Notes under the pieces: generated by a model
What the model saw: the letters and a program-made list of their open reading frames with translations, nothing else
Database searches by the model: none
What the model was told of the DNA's origin: nothing
Program-made: the position numbers and the translations under genes
Shown: positions 11,206 through 54,345 of the stretch, one piece after another
Numbering within the stretch: the stretch's first letter is position 1
Layout: every line of letters begins with the position of its first letter
NCBI RefSeq assembly: GCF_002252565.1
Contig: NZ_NPML01000003.1
Location: forward strand, 1-64,000
Reading direction: 5' to 3'
Origin: Petroclostridium xylanilyticum
Lineage (GTDB): Bacteria > Bacillota > Clostridia > SK-Y3
DNA length: 64,000 bases

Positions 11206-11932
11206 GTTCGTCCGGCATGTTTACTGAGCCGATGGGTTGAAAGAAACCCTGTCACCTAACCAGCGGGAAGACAACCTGTAAGCAAGGGCGTCACTGGCCA
11301 ACGGTGAGGTCTGAAGGAAGCTGAAGGGGGAATCTGGAACATAGCGCAAGCGAACCGAGGTTGGCTCGTCAGGTGGGTAACCTTGCATAAAGTGGGAAAG
11401 CCCGAAAGCTGGATAACCTGAGGGGTTAAGACGGATGCGTTCAGGTTCAGGCAGGTAAACTTAACCGGAGAAGCCCGGCATCATCCCTCAGAGAGGGTAG
11501 GCCCAAACAAGTGGAAACACAAGTGCGGGACGAAGTGATGTGGGGTGGCAGATGACTCCGTAGTAGTGACAAACTCTCGGCCAATGAAAGCTGGTAACAG
11601 ACCGGAGGACAAAACCGGGAGGGCACTGCACCCAGTTGCAGTGGGGTACAGCAAGCCAAAAGCAGCTGTACTTGCGAAGGGAGGAAGATAAATCAAAGAA
11701 TGCAACCAAAGTAGACAAAGGACGGGAAGAGAAGACAACTTTGGCTGGAAGGCCAAAGGGAACGGCTGAACCGGGGGGTGACGAACCTGCTGGGCAGTAC
11801 GTCCGCTCAGCCGGAGTAGAGTGGCTGGAGAGGTAAGATTGCCAATGAGCTAGAGACGCCCGGAAAGCACATGAAGGAACCGGCGCGAAATCCTGAACTA
11901 CAGAGGAAGCATAGCGAAATGGGGTGAAGTGA

Positions 11933-13201
11933 TTGAAGAAATGGTATAGCCTAATAGACAAAGTATACCGGATGGACAACCTGGAAAAAGCATACAAAGC
12001 CGTTAAAGCCAACAATGGCGCCCCCGGAGTAGACGGGGAGACCGTGGAAGCCTTCGGCCAAAACCTGCAAGAAAGGTTAAGCCAACTTCAACACGAACTC
12101 AAAACCGGCATTTACGAACCCCAACCGGTGCTGCGGGTAGAAATACCCAAAGCGGACGGCAGTAAACGCCCGCTGGGTATACCCACAGTAAGGGACCGGA
12201 TAGTCCAACAAGCCCTCCTAAACATCCTACAACCAATCTTTGAACCCGACTTTCACCCGTCAAGCTATGGATACAGACCTGGGCGCTCCTGTCACCAGGC
12301 AGTAGCCAAGGCGGAAATGTTCATAAACAAATACGGACTGAATCATGTTGTAGACATGGACCTATCCAAATGCTTTGACCGGCTGGACCATGAACTAATC
12401 CTGGAAGGAGTCAACCGTAGAATCAGTGACGGAAGTATCCTGAGACTGATAAAGAAATTTCTGACTGCTGGAGTAATGAAAGACGGAACATGGGAAGAAA
12501 CAGACTTGGGGAGCCCGCAAGGCGGAGTTATCTCTCCCCTATTGACAAATATCTACCTGGACAGATTCGACCAGGAGATGAAGAAACGTGGCATAAGAAT
12601 CGTCCGCTACGCGGACGATATACTGCTCTTTGCCCGGACCTACCAGGAAGCAAAGAAATATCAGCAGATAGCTACAGAGTTCTTGGAAAAGGAATTAAAA
12701 CTAGTAGTCAACAGGGAAAAGACCCACCTAACTGACAACCAAAAGGGTGTAGCCTACCTTGGCTTCGTAATCTACTCCAAGCACGTGACAATTAGCCCCA
12801 AGAAACTGAAAAGTTTCAAGAAAAAGATACGGGAGATGACTCCCAGAAATCACGGAATGAACGTAGAGGAGATGGTCAAACTCCTAAATCCCGTATTGCG
12901 GGGATGGGCAAACTACTTCCGGATAGCCAACTGTAAGGGAATATTCAAAGAACTGATGGGATGGATAAGGCGCCGGCTGCGAATGAAGAAAATGAAGGAA
13001 TGGAAAACCTGGAAGGGACTGCACAAGATGCTAAGAAGACGCGGTTACAAGGGTACATTTGAGAAAATTTCCATGACCACATGGAAAAACTCAGCCAGTC
13101 CTTTAATAAGCATGGCGTTGCCGAACAGCTGGTTTGATGAACTAGGACTAATAAACCTGGAAAAATATAATGTCGGCATTTTGCATCATTATAAGCAATA
13201 G
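11933..13201 (+). CDS. ltrA: Group II intron reverse transcriptase/maturase
   Basis: A 422-residue intron-encoded protein that helps the intron fold, splice and copy itself. The reverse transcriptase domain (about 20-290) shows VDMDLSKCFDRLDH, GSPQGGVISPLL and the catalytic RYADDILLF. A maturase X domain follows (about 300-400; LNPVLRGWANYFRIANCKG, then WIRRRLRMKK). There is no HNH endonuclease domain, as expected for class C introns. The TTG start at 11933 follows GGGGTGAAGTGA; a later ATG at 11971 is an alternative. GC and codon use are higher than in neighbouring genes. Confidence 0.93.
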   Translation: MKKWYSLIDKVYRMDNLEKAYKAVKANNGAPGVDGETVEAFGQNLQERLSQLQHELKTGIYEPQPVLRVEIPKADGSKRPLGIPTVRDRIVQQALLNILQPIFEPDFHPSSYGYRPGRSCHQAVAKAEMFINKYGLNHVVDMDLSKCFDRLDHELILEGVNRRISDGSILRLIKKFLTAGVMKDGTWEETDLGSPQGGVISPLLTNIYLDRFDQEMKKRGIRIVRYADDILLFARTYQEAKKYQQIATEFLEKELKLVVNREKTHLTDNQKGVAYLGFVIYSKHVTISPKKLKSFKKKIREMTPRNHGMNVEEMVKLLNPVLRGWANYFRIANCKGIFKELMGWIRRRLRMKKMKEWKTWKGLHKMLRRRGYKGTFEKISMTTWKNSASPLISMALPNSWFDELGLINLEKYNVGILHHYKQ

Positions 13202-13218
13202 TGACTGAGATTTATCAG

Positions 13219-13258
13219 GAGCCGTATACGAGGCCCGTACGTACGGTTCTGTGAGAAG
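13219..13258 (+). ncRNA. Group II intron 1 domain V
   Basis: GAGCCGTATACGAGG and CCGTACGTACGGTTCTGTG form the conserved domain V hairpin 18 bp after the maturase stop. This is the catalytic RNA element of the intron. Confidence 0.8.
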
Positions 13259-13374
13259 GATAAAGCCGAAGCAAATTACTTCGGCTTTACCTTACTCGAT
13301 TGTGATTCCATATGCAAGTTGCAAAAAAAGGGGGGGAACATGTAGTTCTTCTTAATGATAGAAATTTTATCATA

Positions 13375-29798: not shown

Positions 29799-30219
29799 GT
29801 GCGCCCGGCATGGGCGATAACTAGGCGGTGAAAGTCCGCTGTGGGCTTGGTAGTGGGAACCACTAGCTGAACCGCAAGGGTGTCCATCGCGAGGTGGAAT
29901 CTGAAGGAAGTGGTAGGCAAAATCTCGGTCTGATGAACAAAAACCAGATAAGAGGCTGAATTGGGGCGGACGAGTTTGCTAAACAAAACGAAGTCCAACA
30001 CTACCCGAACTCCATACAGTAAATCTGGCAGATAGACGAGATGAAGGTTATCGTTCTTACCCGGGGAGGTCTCAAGGACGAGTCATTAAAGTGAACTCCG
30101 AAATGACAACCCATACAGTGATGTATGGCTGAACCTTGAGAAGTCAGCAGAGGTCATAGTACTTATCTAGTCATGAATAGATAAGGAAGGACCGAACATT
30201 AGGAGGTTTTGGAAATCTT

Positions 30220-31626
30220 ATGAACTCGAAAGATATGCAAAGACTGCAGACAACTCAACAAAGAGGCTATCCGCTCAATCAAGAAATGGAATTTCAAGAG
30301 ACAGCGGAAGTGCATAGTATATCATCGGCGTCAAAAGATAGAAGAAACAATGTACAAAGATACACCAGTAATCTGCTTGAAATGATACTAGACCGAGAAA
30401 ACATGAAAGAAGCATACAAGCGAGTAGTTGCAAATAAAGGAAGCCATGGAGTCGATGGGATGGAAGTAGATGAACTTCTACCGTATCTCAAAGAAAACTG
30501 GCCGACCATAAAGCAACAATTACTGGAAGGAAAGTATAAACCACAACCAGTGCTGAGAGTAGAAATACCAAAACCAGATGGAGGAACAAGACTACTAGGA
30601 ATACCTACAGTACTAGACAGACTAATACAACAAGCAATAGCCCAAATACTAAGTGGAATATACGACCATACATTCTCGGAAAATAGCTATGGATTCAGAC
30701 CAGGACGCAGTGCAAAAGATGCAGTAACAGCCGCAGAAGTATATATAAACGAAGGATGCACATGGGTAGTAGATATAGACTTAGAAAAGTTCTTTGACAG
30801 AGTAAACCACGACATACTGATGACTAAATTAGAAAAGCGGATAGGAGACAAAAGAGTACTGAAGCTGATACGAAGATACTTAGAATCAGGAGTAATGATA
30901 AATGGAATCAAAGTAGCAACAGAAGAAGGGACACCACAAGGAGGGCCATTAAGTCCGCTATTAGCAAACATAATGTTAGATGAACTAGACAAAGAACTAG
31001 AAAGAAGAGGGCATAAATTCTGTCGGTATGCAGATGATTGCAACATATACGTAAAAAGCAGGTCAGCAGGAAACAGAGTAATGAAAAGCATAAAGAAATT
31101 CATAGAAACCAAATTAAAACTAAAAGTCAATGAAGCAAAAAGTGCTGTAGATAGACCATGGAAAAGAAAGTTCTTAGGATTCTCGTTTTACACAAAAGAA
31201 AACGAAGTAAGAATAAGAATCCATGAAAAATCCATCAAAAGGCTTAAGGAAAAAGTAAGAGAAATAACCAATCGAAACAAGGGAATAAGTATGGAATATA
31301 GAATACGTAGATTGAATCAGATAACGACAGGATGGGTTAACTACTTTGGATTAGCAGATGCGAAAAGAATAATGAAAGCCCTTGACGAATGGATAAGGCG
31401 TAGACTAAGAGCATGTATATGGAAACAATGGAAGAAGATAAAAACAAAATACGATAATCTAGTAAAATTAGGATTAGAAAAACAGAAAGCCTGGATATAC
31501 GCTAATACGAGAAAAGGCTACTGGAGAATATCCAATAGCCAAATACTCAATATGACTCTTACAAATAAATACTTCGAAGACATAGGTTACAAGAGTTTAT
31601 CAAAGAGGTATCTAATTGTACATTAA
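30220..31626 (+). CDS. ltrA: Group II intron reverse transcriptase/maturase
   Basis: A 468-residue intron-encoded protein. A ~50-residue polar N-terminal extension precedes the reverse transcriptase domain (about 60-330; VVDIDLEKFFDRVNHDIL, GTPQGGPLSPLLANI, catalytic CRYADDCNIY). The maturase X domain follows (about 345-440; LNQITTGWVNYFGLADAKR). There is no endonuclease domain. The ATG at 30220 follows TAGGAGGTTTTGGAAATCTT. It is only moderately similar to the intron 1 protein (different loop lengths and codon use), so it belongs to a different sublineage. It probably promotes splicing and target-primed insertion at terminators. Confidence 0.93.
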   Translation: MNSKDMQRLQTTQQRGYPLNQEMEFQETAEVHSISSASKDRRNNVQRYTSNLLEMILDRENMKEAYKRVVANKGSHGVDGMEVDELLPYLKENWPTIKQQLLEGKYKPQPVLRVEIPKPDGGTRLLGIPTVLDRLIQQAIAQILSGIYDHTFSENSYGFRPGRSAKDAVTAAEVYINEGCTWVVDIDLEKFFDRVNHDILMTKLEKRIGDKRVLKLIRRYLESGVMINGIKVATEEGTPQGGPLSPLLANIMLDELDKELERRGHKFCRYADDCNIYVKSRSAGNRVMKSIKKFIETKLKLKVNEAKSAVDRPWKRKFLGFSFYTKENEVRIRIHEKSIKRLKEKVREITNRNKGISMEYRIRRLNQITTGWVNYFGLADAKRIMKALDEWIRRRLRACIWKQWKKIKTKYDNLVKLGLEKQKAWIYANTRKGYWRISNSQILNMTLTNKYFEDIGYKSLSKRYLIVH

Positions 31627-31634
31627 ATCTTAAT

Positions 31635-31676
31635 GAACCGCCGTATACCGAACGGTACGTACGGTGGTGTGAGAGG
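31635..31676 (+). ncRNA. Group II intron 2 domain V
   Basis: GAACCGCCGTATACCGAACG and GTACGTACGGTGGTGTG form the domain V hairpin 9 bp after the maturase stop. Confidence 0.75.
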
Positions 31677-31837
31677 ACGCTGAATAAAATAATTATTCAG
31701 CTTCTACTCGATTTTAATTTAAGAAAACAGCAGATTTGATTTATTGTCAAGCTGCTTGAGTGGTTAAAGAATATTTTCTAACAAAACTATTCATACAAAA
31801 TTCGAAAATTAGCAGGAATTTTTAAATACATGTAGAA

Positions 31838-49729: not shown

Positions 49730-49746
49730 GTTAAAGGGTGATTGAA

Positions 49747-51450
49747 ATGAAAAATATGTTCCAAATATATATGAGTTTAATCAATAATCTGGGGTTAGGT
49801 ATTATCCTGGCTTTAGTATTAAGTAAAACAAAGTTTTTCAAAAGCTTGATTCTTAACCGTAGAATTGGTGCAGTAGAGAAAATTGCATTATGTTGTATCT
49901 TTGGGAGTTTAGGCATCATGGCAACTTATACAGGAGTACCGGTCAAAGGTGCATTAGCAAATTTTAGAGCGATAGGTGTGGTTGTCGGAGGAATGCTGGG
50001 AGGTTTTTGGGTAGGTCTGGGTGCTGGGCTTTTGGCGGGTATTCACCGGTGGGCTATTGATATTGGAGGTTTTACTGCAGTTGCATGTGCTATTGCTACT
50101 GTTTTGGAAGGGGCAATAGGGGGAATTGCAGCAAGATATGTGAAAAATTCATCTTATAAATGGCTAAAGGCATTTATGGTGACAGTTCTTTCGCAAATGG
50201 TACAAATGGCAATTATACTTGTTGTTGCCAAACCTTTTGAGCAGGCCCTGGATTTAGTTAAATTGATAGCTTTACCCATGATTACAATAAATTCCATAGG
50301 TTCGGCATTGTTCATGCTGATTATTGAGGGCATTTTTGCTGAACAGCAGAGGATAGGAGCGAGTAAAGCCCATCTTGCACTACGTATTGCAAATAAGACA
50401 TTGCCCATTATGAGAAATGGCTTTAATGAAGTTACTCTTGAGAAGGTAGCAAAAATAATTCTTTCCATGACAGGGGTTGCAGCCGTAGCCTTTACTGATA
50501 AAAGTAAAATTTTAGTCCATTTAGGTGCCGGTGCTGACCATCACAAACCTAATAACAATATTCTGACAGATGCAACCAGAAAAGCGCTGCAAACCAGGAA
50601 ATACCAGGTAGCCTCAAATCACAGCGAAGTTGGATGCAGACATGACGGGTGCCGTTTGAACTCGGCTGTTATAGTACCTCTATTTGTAAGAAAAGAGATT
50701 ATTGGTACAATGAAGCTCTATAGTGAAGAGACTAACGGTATAGACGAAGTGGATATAGAACTTGCGCAAGGATTGGCGCATCTTTTTTCTACACAGATGG
50801 AATTAAGTATAATAGATGAGCAGGCGAGGCTTTTAGAAAAGGCGGAATTAAAAGCGCTGCAGGCTCAAATTAACCCGCACTTTTTATTCAACGCCATTAA
50901 TACGATTGTTTCCTTTTGCAGAACCAAGCCCGACGAAGCACGAAGCCTGTTAATTCATCTGGGAGACTTTTTTAGAAAAAACTTAAATACCATTAAGGAT
51001 TTTGTAAGCTTAAATGATGAAATTGAGCATATAAAGTCCTATGTCGCTATTGAAAAAGCAAGATTTGGAGATAAGCTTAAAGTGGAGTATGATATTGGCA
51101 ATATAAAATGTAAAATACCTCCTTTGACATTACAACCTTTGGTAGAAAATGCTATTAAGCATGGTCTGCTGGGTAAGGCCGGTGGGGGAATTGTAAAAGT
51201 AAGCGCATTTTATCATAAAGATGAAATTAGAATTCTTGTAGAAGATAATGGGATAGGCATAGAGGAGGGTAAATGCAAAAACTTGTTAAAACCTGAGGAA
51301 TCTAATAAAGGAATTGCACTGCTTAATATTAATAGCAGGCTGAAAAACGCTTTTGGAAATGCCTATGGATTGGAGATAAAAAGTAAACCGGGGTATGGAA
51401 CTACAGTATGTGTAAGAGTGCCTGCCGTTAAAAGGAGTGAAGTTGCTTAG
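49747..51450 (+). CDS. LytS-family sensor histidine kinase
   Basis: A 567-residue membrane sensor. The N-terminal 5TM-5TMR_LYT domain (about 1-190) is followed by a GAF-like domain (about 225-350), then the histidine kinase with phospho-acceptor H378 in LQAQINPHFLFNAINTI and the ATPase N-box and G-box (LQPLVENAIKHGLLG, VEDNGIGIEEG). The ATG at 49747 is preferred over the GTG at 49738 because AAAGGG fits it at normal spacing. Its stop overlaps the regulator's GTG start by one base. A carbon-starvation-type carrier follows, as in the pyruvate-sensing BtsSR-BtsT system of E. coli, so the ligand may be pyruvate (inference). Confidence 0.93.
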   Translation: MKNMFQIYMSLINNLGLGIILALVLSKTKFFKSLILNRRIGAVEKIALCCIFGSLGIMATYTGVPVKGALANFRAIGVVVGGMLGGFWVGLGAGLLAGIHRWAIDIGGFTAVACAIATVLEGAIGGIAARYVKNSSYKWLKAFMVTVLSQMVQMAIILVVAKPFEQALDLVKLIALPMITINSIGSALFMLIIEGIFAEQQRIGASKAHLALRIANKTLPIMRNGFNEVTLEKVAKIILSMTGVAAVAFTDKSKILVHLGAGADHHKPNNNILTDATRKALQTRKYQVASNHSEVGCRHDGCRLNSAVIVPLFVRKEIIGTMKLYSEETNGIDEVDIELAQGLAHLFSTQMELSIIDEQARLLEKAELKALQAQINPHFLFNAINTIVSFCRTKPDEARSLLIHLGDFFRKNLNTIKDFVSLNDEIEHIKSYVAIEKARFGDKLKVEYDIGNIKCKIPPLTLQPLVENAIKHGLLGKAGGGIVKVSAFYHKDEIRILVEDNGIGIEEGKCKNLLKPEESNKGIALLNINSRLKNAFGNAYGLEIKSKPGYGTTVCVRVPAVKRSEVA

Positions 51451-52217
51451 TGGTAATCAGGGCAGTAATTATTGATGATGAAATACCTGCAAGAGAGGAA
51501 CTGGAATATTTACTGACAAAGGAAGACAGCTTATTCAAAATTGTTGGAAGGGGACAATCGGGAGAGGAAGCAGTAGAACTTTGTAATGAACTAAAGCCAG
51601 ATGTAGTATTTCTGGATATCCACATGTATGGCATGAGTGGACTGGAAGCGGCAAAAATGATACTAGGCAGTAATTCGCCGCCTATTATCATATTTGCCAC
51701 GGCTTATGATGAACATGCTGTGGAGGCTTTTGAAATCAATGCAGTAGATTATATCCTGAAACCTTTTTCGGAAGAGAGGATTCGTATTACTATTAGTAAA
51801 ATACGTCATCTGCTTGATAATAAAGGTATACAAAGCGGGAGGCTGACAAAGGCAATCCATACTATTGAGCAGGCCGGCGGTATCAGTGGTAAGCTGGGTA
51901 TATGGGTTGATGAGCGGTTTATACTCATCGACCAAAAGGATATTGTATACTTGGAAGCCCAACGTAAACATACATTAATTAATACAACATCACACCAATA
52001 CGAATCCACTACTTCTTTTGGTGAGCTGGAACAAAAATTAGACGGCAAATTGTTTTTTAAAGTTCATAGAAGCTATATAGTAAACCTGAATCACATCAAA
52101 GAGGTAAGCATGTGGTTTAATAACAACTTGAACATTATAATGAAAGGCTATGAAAAAAACAGGATTCCTGTGTCCAGAACCCAGATAAAACAATTTAAAG
52201 AATTGATAGGAATGTAA
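51450..52217 (+). CDS. LytTR-family response regulator
   Basis: A 255-residue regulator with an N-terminal receiver domain (about 1-120; phospho-acceptor D56 in VVFLDIHMYG, conserved Lys in YILKPFSEERI) and a C-terminal LytTR DNA-binding domain (about 148-250; IVYLEAQRKHTLINTTS, KVHRSYIVNLNHI). The GTG at 51450 overlaps the kinase stop and follows AAAGGAGTGAAGTTGCTTA. It likely activates the carrier gene 132 bp downstream. Confidence 0.93.
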   Translation: MVIRAVIIDDEIPAREELEYLLTKEDSLFKIVGRGQSGEEAVELCNELKPDVVFLDIHMYGMSGLEAAKMILGSNSPPIIIFATAYDEHAVEAFEINAVDYILKPFSEERIRITISKIRHLLDNKGIQSGRLTKAIHTIEQAGGISGKLGIWVDERFILIDQKDIVYLEAQRKHTLINTTSHQYESTTSFGELEQKLDGKLFFKVHRSYIVNLNHIKEVSMWFNNNLNIIMKGYEKNRIPVSRTQIKQFKELIGM

Positions 52218-53798: not shown

Positions 53799-53837
53799 CT
53801 CGTCGGACTGCACCGTCACAAATAATGATGAAAATAT

Positions 53838-54156
53838 ACTGCGGACAAAGGTGCATTGTTTCACCCGGCTGAGTACCATCATATATTCCATGTCTTGCCG
53901 TCGGCTTATACCGGCATCCGTGCCGGGATAAGCCTAAAATCACCTTCCATGGTGATTTTCCGGCTGCAACATTCCATATATGATGGTACTCACTCTAAGA
54001 GTTTCGAGGCGAAGAACTTCCAATGCTTGTGTCAGGCAGGTGCAAACTGGATTTGCTCAAACAGTGTGCCTGCTTCTCTGACACTAAACCGGGAAGTTCT
54101 AATACCTCTTCACAATGCGGGTTCAACAATTGTACACCTTTGTCCGCAGTTTTTTG
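53838..54156 (+). ncRNA. Candidate multi-branched structured RNA with terminator-like closing helix
   Basis: ACTGCGGACAAAGGTG (53838-53853) pairs perfectly with CACCTTTGTCCGCAGT (54135-54150), followed by Ts. The helix continues through TTGTT and ACCCG (to 53867/54118). Inside are two branches. Branch 1 is a 16-bp perfect stem (53871-53886 with 53976-53991). It encloses a 10-bp stem (53895-53904/53960-53969) and two hairpins: 53903-53915/53922-53934 with one mismatch (sharing two bases with that stem), and 53936-53944/53951-53959 perfect. Branch 2 has stems 54013-54021/54092-54100, 54029-54035/54078-54084, 54036-54040/54069-54073 and 54042-54046/54052-54056. No reading frame explains it. I see no tmRNA, RNase P or SRP RNA signature. 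No convincing promoter was found, so it may be transcribed from cstA. Confidence 0.6.
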
Positions 54157-54345
54157 TGTAAGCTAATTTTCAAGTTAACTCATTGTGCTAGACTATATAT
54201 CAATAAAATCAACCTTATAATCTTTTTCAAAGACGATATTCTTTTACGAATATTTTACAAAATTAACATATCTTCTTGAATTTATTTTTGTAATGTAGTA
54301 TCTTTATTGTATAGCACTCTAATTTTAAAAAGGAGGAATTGCAAC

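Follow-up and report, generated by a model that had tools for sequence, protein, structure and literature searches.

A stretch of 64,000 nucleotides from the Petroclostridium xylanilyticum genome (hereafter the window) contains, between cstA (PF02554) and a small ORF that both lie on the + strand, a sequence with a large multi-branched fold, and the question is what this sequence represents. The initial annotation offered three answers: a stand-alone, undescribed RNA of about 320 nt, a long 3' UTR structure of cstA, or a folded non-autonomous mobile element. As set out below, the fold is real, and two non-autonomous mobile elements, one inserted in the other, account for it.

Fold and known RNA motif at the locus

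Inspection of the sequence confirmed the 16-bp perfect closing helix that had been described, with six Ts after it (T54150-54155; Table 1). The strong multi-branched fold was recovered as well, and both of its branches (53870-53990 and about 54006-54108) match the earlier description. As + strand RNA, 53820-54170 folds with -151.4 kcal/mol versus -87.1 (sd 6.5) for dinucleotide shuffles (z = -10.0), while the - strand reaches -159.2 kcal/mol (z = -13.7) and, folded as DNA, gives z = -14.4; on either strand, none of the shuffles attains the native folding energy. The sole ORF across the element (53856-54161, TTG start, 101 aa) straddles two unrelated repeats and is without support, in line with the earlier view that no reading frame explains the structure. 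The ORF list gives no coding capacity within the element, and a simple scan of the element for intrinsic terminators returned nothing.

ARAGORN gave no tmRNA match, and the Rfam search, in which raiA, OLE, ROOL and GOLLD were without a match, produced a single family above threshold at the element: TwoAYGGAY (RF01731), on the minus strand at 53997-53870, with 43.7 bits for the full window and 52.0 bits for a short stretch against a gathering score of 43. Other Rfam families matched the stretch below threshold, probably by chance. As in the original description of TwoAYGGAY (Weinberg et al. 2010, PMC2864571), the module has two ANGGA-loop hairpins in a three-way junction; its predicted loops are AUGGAA and ACGGAU, the first of which ends in A rather than in the Y of AYGGAY. 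The second irregular branch belongs to no Rfam family at gathering score.

Table 1. Features of the composite element, in coordinates of the window.
Feature	Position	Strand	Evidence
Composite foldback element (outer MITE-like repeat plus inserted TwoAYGGAY module)	53826..54172 (outer boundaries approximate)		Dispersed partial copies in the same genome; alignment of outer copies
Left arm of 16-bp perfect inverted repeat, ACTGCGGACAAAGGTG	53838..53853	+	Sequence; same pattern at other outer copies
Right arm of 16-bp perfect inverted repeat, six T next on the + strand	54135..54150	-	Sequence; fold
Inserted TwoAYGGAY module, 131 bp, replacing CA of the empty site	53868..53998	-	Six outer copies without the module; Rfam RF01731
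Module hairpin 1, 9-bp stem, loop AUGGAA at 53950-53945	53936..53959	-	Fold; Rfam alignment; covariation of equivalents
Module hairpin 2, loop ACGGAU at 53921-53916	53903..53934	-	Fold; Rfam alignment; loop conservation
Second irregular branch, an original part of the outer element	54006..54108		Present in module-free outer copies

Two observations concern the surroundings. Directly upstream of cstA (49738-52217) are genes for a 5TMR-LYT sensor kinase and a LytTR response regulator. The window also has two + strand group II introns (11291-13300 and 29883-31712), with domains D1-D4 and the catalytic core, and several more are present in the genome.

Two nested repeat families

Searching the organism's own genome (3.86 Mb) with the element gave 41 matches, which split into two repeat families: one set covers query positions 31-163, i.e., the first branch, and the other covers positions 1-38 and 161-341, i.e., the ends and the second branch. 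Only the window copy itself matches the whole composite at full length. The outer repeat has about eight other copies, mostly incomplete, with most of them truncated or rearranged. Six of these extend across the insertion point and have an empty site, TTTCACCCG-CA-GAGTTTCGAGG, with small differences. In an alignment of the outer copies, the window copy lacks this CA and has 131 bp there, flanked by TTTCACCCG on one side and GAGTTTCGAGG on the other; no target duplication belonging to this insertion is evident in that alignment. The TwoAYGGAY module has about 19 copies in the genome by BLAST and 12 by the Rfam model. By eye, at least two scaffolds can be told apart: type A is bounded by TATATAAAWWACACTWAATAYRTTACATTG, and type B by ATGAAAATAGC / GATGAAAATACA. 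The type B ends look like those of the outer element in the window, where the ends of the composite resemble the type B ends GAAAATAGC / GATGAAAATACA. No phage or plasmid sequence related to the composite was found.

Since the branch at 53868-53998 is a separate repeat with a known motif on the minus strand, the main branch is not an undescribed RNA. More generally, it is very improbable that the whole is a stand-alone RNA or a cstA 3' UTR structure. The strong fold and the position after cstA are what such a reading would expect; against this, the structure splits into two independently dispersed repeats, the complete arrangement occurs once in the genome, and the main branch belongs, on the opposite strand, to a family already known. 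The UTR version is further weakened because copies of the motif adjoin unrelated genes in all contexts and because the motif in the window is antisense to cstA. Of the original proposals, it is thus the mobile element that stands, and the dispersed copies, the empty outer versions and the target site duplications (TSDs) in the family of a relative (see below) make this part of the interpretation almost certain.

Two further repeat arrangements were noted in the same genome. Two TwoAYGGAY copies (L019 and L020; G000:C2:213975-220172) lie approximately 3.1 kb apart and have a common right flank and different left flanks, as if a duplication were bordered at the element. Separately, IS200-like/RAYT transposase genes (L049, L050), some with stop codons, are flanked by GTGACA...GGGGACGGTTCT repeats and form a repeat system of their own.

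Mobility and distribution of TwoAYGGAY

The clearest picture of mobility comes from genome G042 and its congener G069, where the elements have inverted ends CTGCRATTCGTAATAT. This end pattern has 40+37 matches in G042 versus 3+5 for a reversed control. Direct repeats of 7-11 bp border 17 of the 21 G042/G069 elements, four of them with one mismatch (examples are ATCATATAA, ATAGGTTAA, ATAAGCGAT and ATTTGCCAT); with a stricter criterion (at least 7/8 matches), the count is 15/21, compared to 4/420 for flanks mispaired between elements. The initial annotation had held that dispersed copies with target duplications would identify a transposable element. Many copies are indeed found in the organism's own genome, and the duplications are found in the elements of these relatives, with none recognised for the window copy or the families of its own genome.

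The G042 family is also modular. Its 134-bp members without the RNA (L190 and L198) both have the inverted ends, with a clear TSD in L198; members with TwoAYGGAY measure 284-287 bp, and three of approximately 396 bp (L187, L188, and L195) carry TwoAYGGAY with a second hairpin alongside. Given members without the RNA, with the RNA, and with the RNA plus a second hairpin, foldback MITEs take TwoAYGGAY along as one of their modules, and since module-free members transpose, the module is dispensable for mobility. The layout of the window element is the same as that of the members with RNA and second hairpin, while the sequences are unrelated. We conclude that foldback MITEs are the carriers of TwoAYGGAY, which is best shown in this one family and indicated in others. 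The second hairpin (around GACCACTACGCAATCAAAGATTGCTGTGGTCC) itself swaps in and out of a single MITE scaffold next to TwoAYGGAY (L187, L188, L191, L195, and L196), and in L191 and L196 it occurs without TwoAYGGAY loops.

No transposase was found between such inverted ends in G042 or in the organism's own genome. A 1.5-kb inverted-end pair in G042 was considered as an autonomous transposon, but it has no transposase-like frame and contains part of an unrelated long ORF, so that we take it as chance. Mobilisation by RAYT/Y1 enzymes was considered as well, given 12 PF01797 matches in the organism's own genome, but the related family has TSDs, which speaks against a Y1 enzyme; HUH/Y1 enzymes are not known to leave TSDs.

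In the family of the window, 3 of 6 genomes have TwoAYGGAY. Among evenly sampled genomes of the class, it is present in 35 of 391 (23/222 genera) and usually in multiple copies, the copy numbers being lower bounds because at most 7 candidates were scored per genome. A 20-base pattern search of genome contigs gave three matches in Proteobacteria/Myxococcales, probably by chance. Copies are mostly alike within a genome, and the stems of distant genomes have little recognisable common sequence. With genes called crudely as long ORFs, the 115 copies with flanks lie between tandem genes on the same strand (38) or the opposite strand (35), between convergent (21) or divergent (16) genes, or in undetermined contexts (5). 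TwoAYGGAY is therefore not a fixed cis element. In the organism's own genome (L001-L026, L062, and L066), 14 tandem-gene copies are co-oriented with their neighbours and 2 are opposite, the window copy being one of the 2. Outside this genome, tandem copies have no orientation bias (24 same versus 33 opposite), and we do not take the strong bias in one genome as general support.

BOX, RUP and Correia elements are modular bacterial MITEs. The elements described here resemble them in being short and non-coding, with inverted ends, many intergenic copies and a nested, modular build, and with TSDs in the G042 family; they differ in having a conserved RNA module common to many families on scaffolds whose ends vary between genomes, and in that a partner transposase was not found. 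IStrons, which combine a group I intron with an insertion sequence (PMC4227781), likewise join a structured RNA to a DNA transposon scaffold, but our elements contain neither ribozyme nor transposase gene and their putative role is different. With respect to TwoAYGGAY itself, Rfam lists the type as Cis-reg, whereas in our genomes the motif forms a module within palindromic mobile elements that are dispersed and have no constant gene neighbourhood. The passages on the motif that we consulted in the literature do not describe it as mobile, and a likewise non-exhaustive check of the literature that combines MITEs with CsrA or with RNA motifs gave no title on TwoAYGGAY in MITEs.

Loop conservation and the proposed link to CsrA

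The initial annotation pointed to covariation among homologues as a check of the helices, and for 24 sequences taken from 20 genomes RNAalifold predicts 11 pairs, of which 10 show compensatory changes, in which both sides are altered and the pair is kept. The loop pattern is C-A-N-G-G-A-N-G, where any base may stand at N; the closing C-G is kept in 66/69 and 67/69 distinct hairpins and loop starts are 27-30 nt apart, although the sequences were collected with the Rfam model and these counts used the loop pattern, which biases both towards the motif. Loops and spacing persist across 20 genomes whose stems have no sequence in common. Among copies in the organism's own genome, A-GGA loop positions vary in 4/120 cases versus 71/1365 elsewhere, about as low as the rest, so that recent copies show no sign of extra loop constraint. 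A strand test based on G-U versus A-C intermediates gave 13:3 and 16:4 near the loops; it is not robust further out and is biased by the model-based search. Because long palindromes can retain complementarity by templated repair, covariation alone does not prove selection on RNA, and the conserved loops carry more weight as evidence for it.

The loops, as paired GGA hairpin loops, fit the SELEX consensus of CsrA, RUACARGGAUGU, whose ACA and GGA are invariant (PMC7652899). In most of those ligands the loop is six nucleotides long, AC pairs with GU, and the stem has four or fewer pairs, so that the 9-bp first stem of the module counts against CsrA binding, as does the antisense orientation of the window copy to its neighbours. 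The idea that TwoAYGGAY binds CsrA belongs to the authors of the RMfam paper, who proposed it from motif matches (PMC4333381); the co-occurrence test is new here. csrA (PF02599) is found in 124 of the 391 class genomes, namely in 30/35 with TwoAYGGAY versus 94/356 others (Fisher p = 6e-12, odds ratio 16.7, with genomes treated as independent). Group II introns, a control for genomes rich in mobile elements, have a csrA odds ratio of 3.9, below that of TwoAYGGAY. Within intron carriers, csrA accompanies TwoAYGGAY in 17/18 genomes versus 49/108 without the motif (p = 7e-5), and within non-carriers in 13/17 versus 45/248 (p = 1e-6). By hand count, genomes with csrA occur in each of the 12 families that have TwoAYGGAY. 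Five carriers gave no csrA match; three of them are 80-88% complete and two 95-98%. The organism's own genome encodes a canonical csrA in a fliW-csrA-flagellin locus (named by sequence recognition). Since csrA goes together with flagellar genes and the genomes do not count as independent, ancestry and motility remain confounders of this link.

How the module acts can be read in several ways. It may be a neutral palindrome, with complementarity arising from templated repair or snap-back copying and loop conservation reflecting common descent and searching with the Rfam model. Elements in G312 (L218-L221 and L082) hint at such copying, as they have inverted arms of 160-380 bp with 75-80% identity, whose outermost parts seem, by eye, to differ between copies while being complementary within each; the search bias in the loop counts and the lack of reduced loop variation in the organism's own genome fit too. 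We nevertheless regard neutrality as quite improbable, since neither the persistence of loops and spacing over unrelated stems nor the csrA association would follow from it. That the hairpins act as single-stranded or cruciform DNA, read by a transposition or replication protein with the RNA being irrelevant, is a more serious alternative, if still a rather unlikely one. It is in keeping with the equally good DNA fold of the - strand, with the absence of a general orientation bias and with the strand counts that fail beyond the loops, but it does not predict the csrA link or the fit to the consensus of an RNA-binding protein. Moreover, L190 and L198 transpose without the module, and the TSDs argue against HUH/Y1 transposition.

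The module could also function as RNA independently of CsrA, for example as a structure for stability, processing or termination, through which insertions near genes become harmless, or as the site of another protein. RNA-like covariation, intergenic insertion and the 14 of 16 co-oriented tandem copies in the organism's own genome agree with this, but the bias is absent in other genomes, a pure stability element would not need constrained loops, and the csrA association would be left aside; we consider this reading unlikely. The account we prefer, as a possible and still tentative one, is a non-autonomous foldback MITE-like element with an inserted minus-strand TwoAYGGAY that acts through CsrA. 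Its CsrA-binding part, a function suggested by sequence comparison and co-occurrence, is plausible without yet being probable.

According to this preferred account, a DDE-type transposase acting in trans would move the elements via their inverted ends, and the transcribed module would present its pair of ANGGA hairpins to a CsrA dimer, so that each insertion would add a putative CsrA-binding RNA. The many copies could then together form a CsrA sink distributed over the genome, or could tether the protein to the transcripts of which they are part. Among known systems, the Csr/Rsm sponge RNAs (CsrB, CsrC, and RsmX/Y/Z) likewise have several GGA hairpin loops that match the CsrA consensus, and the host has csrA; each of those is a single regulated sRNA gene, whereas here there are many transposable copies with two putative hairpin-loop sites each. 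Extended to the whole class, selfish foldback elements with a conserved, putatively CsrA-binding RNA head may titrate or redirect a global post-transcriptional regulator of the host according to their copy number, a suggestion that we regard as somewhat speculative.

Since 2010, TwoAYGGAY has counted as an orphan among RNA motifs, and its status as a transposable module changes what to test for, while the strong co-occurrence with csrA makes the older CsrA prediction directly testable. If CsrA binding is true, transposable elements would distribute the binding sites of a global RNA regulator genome-wide.
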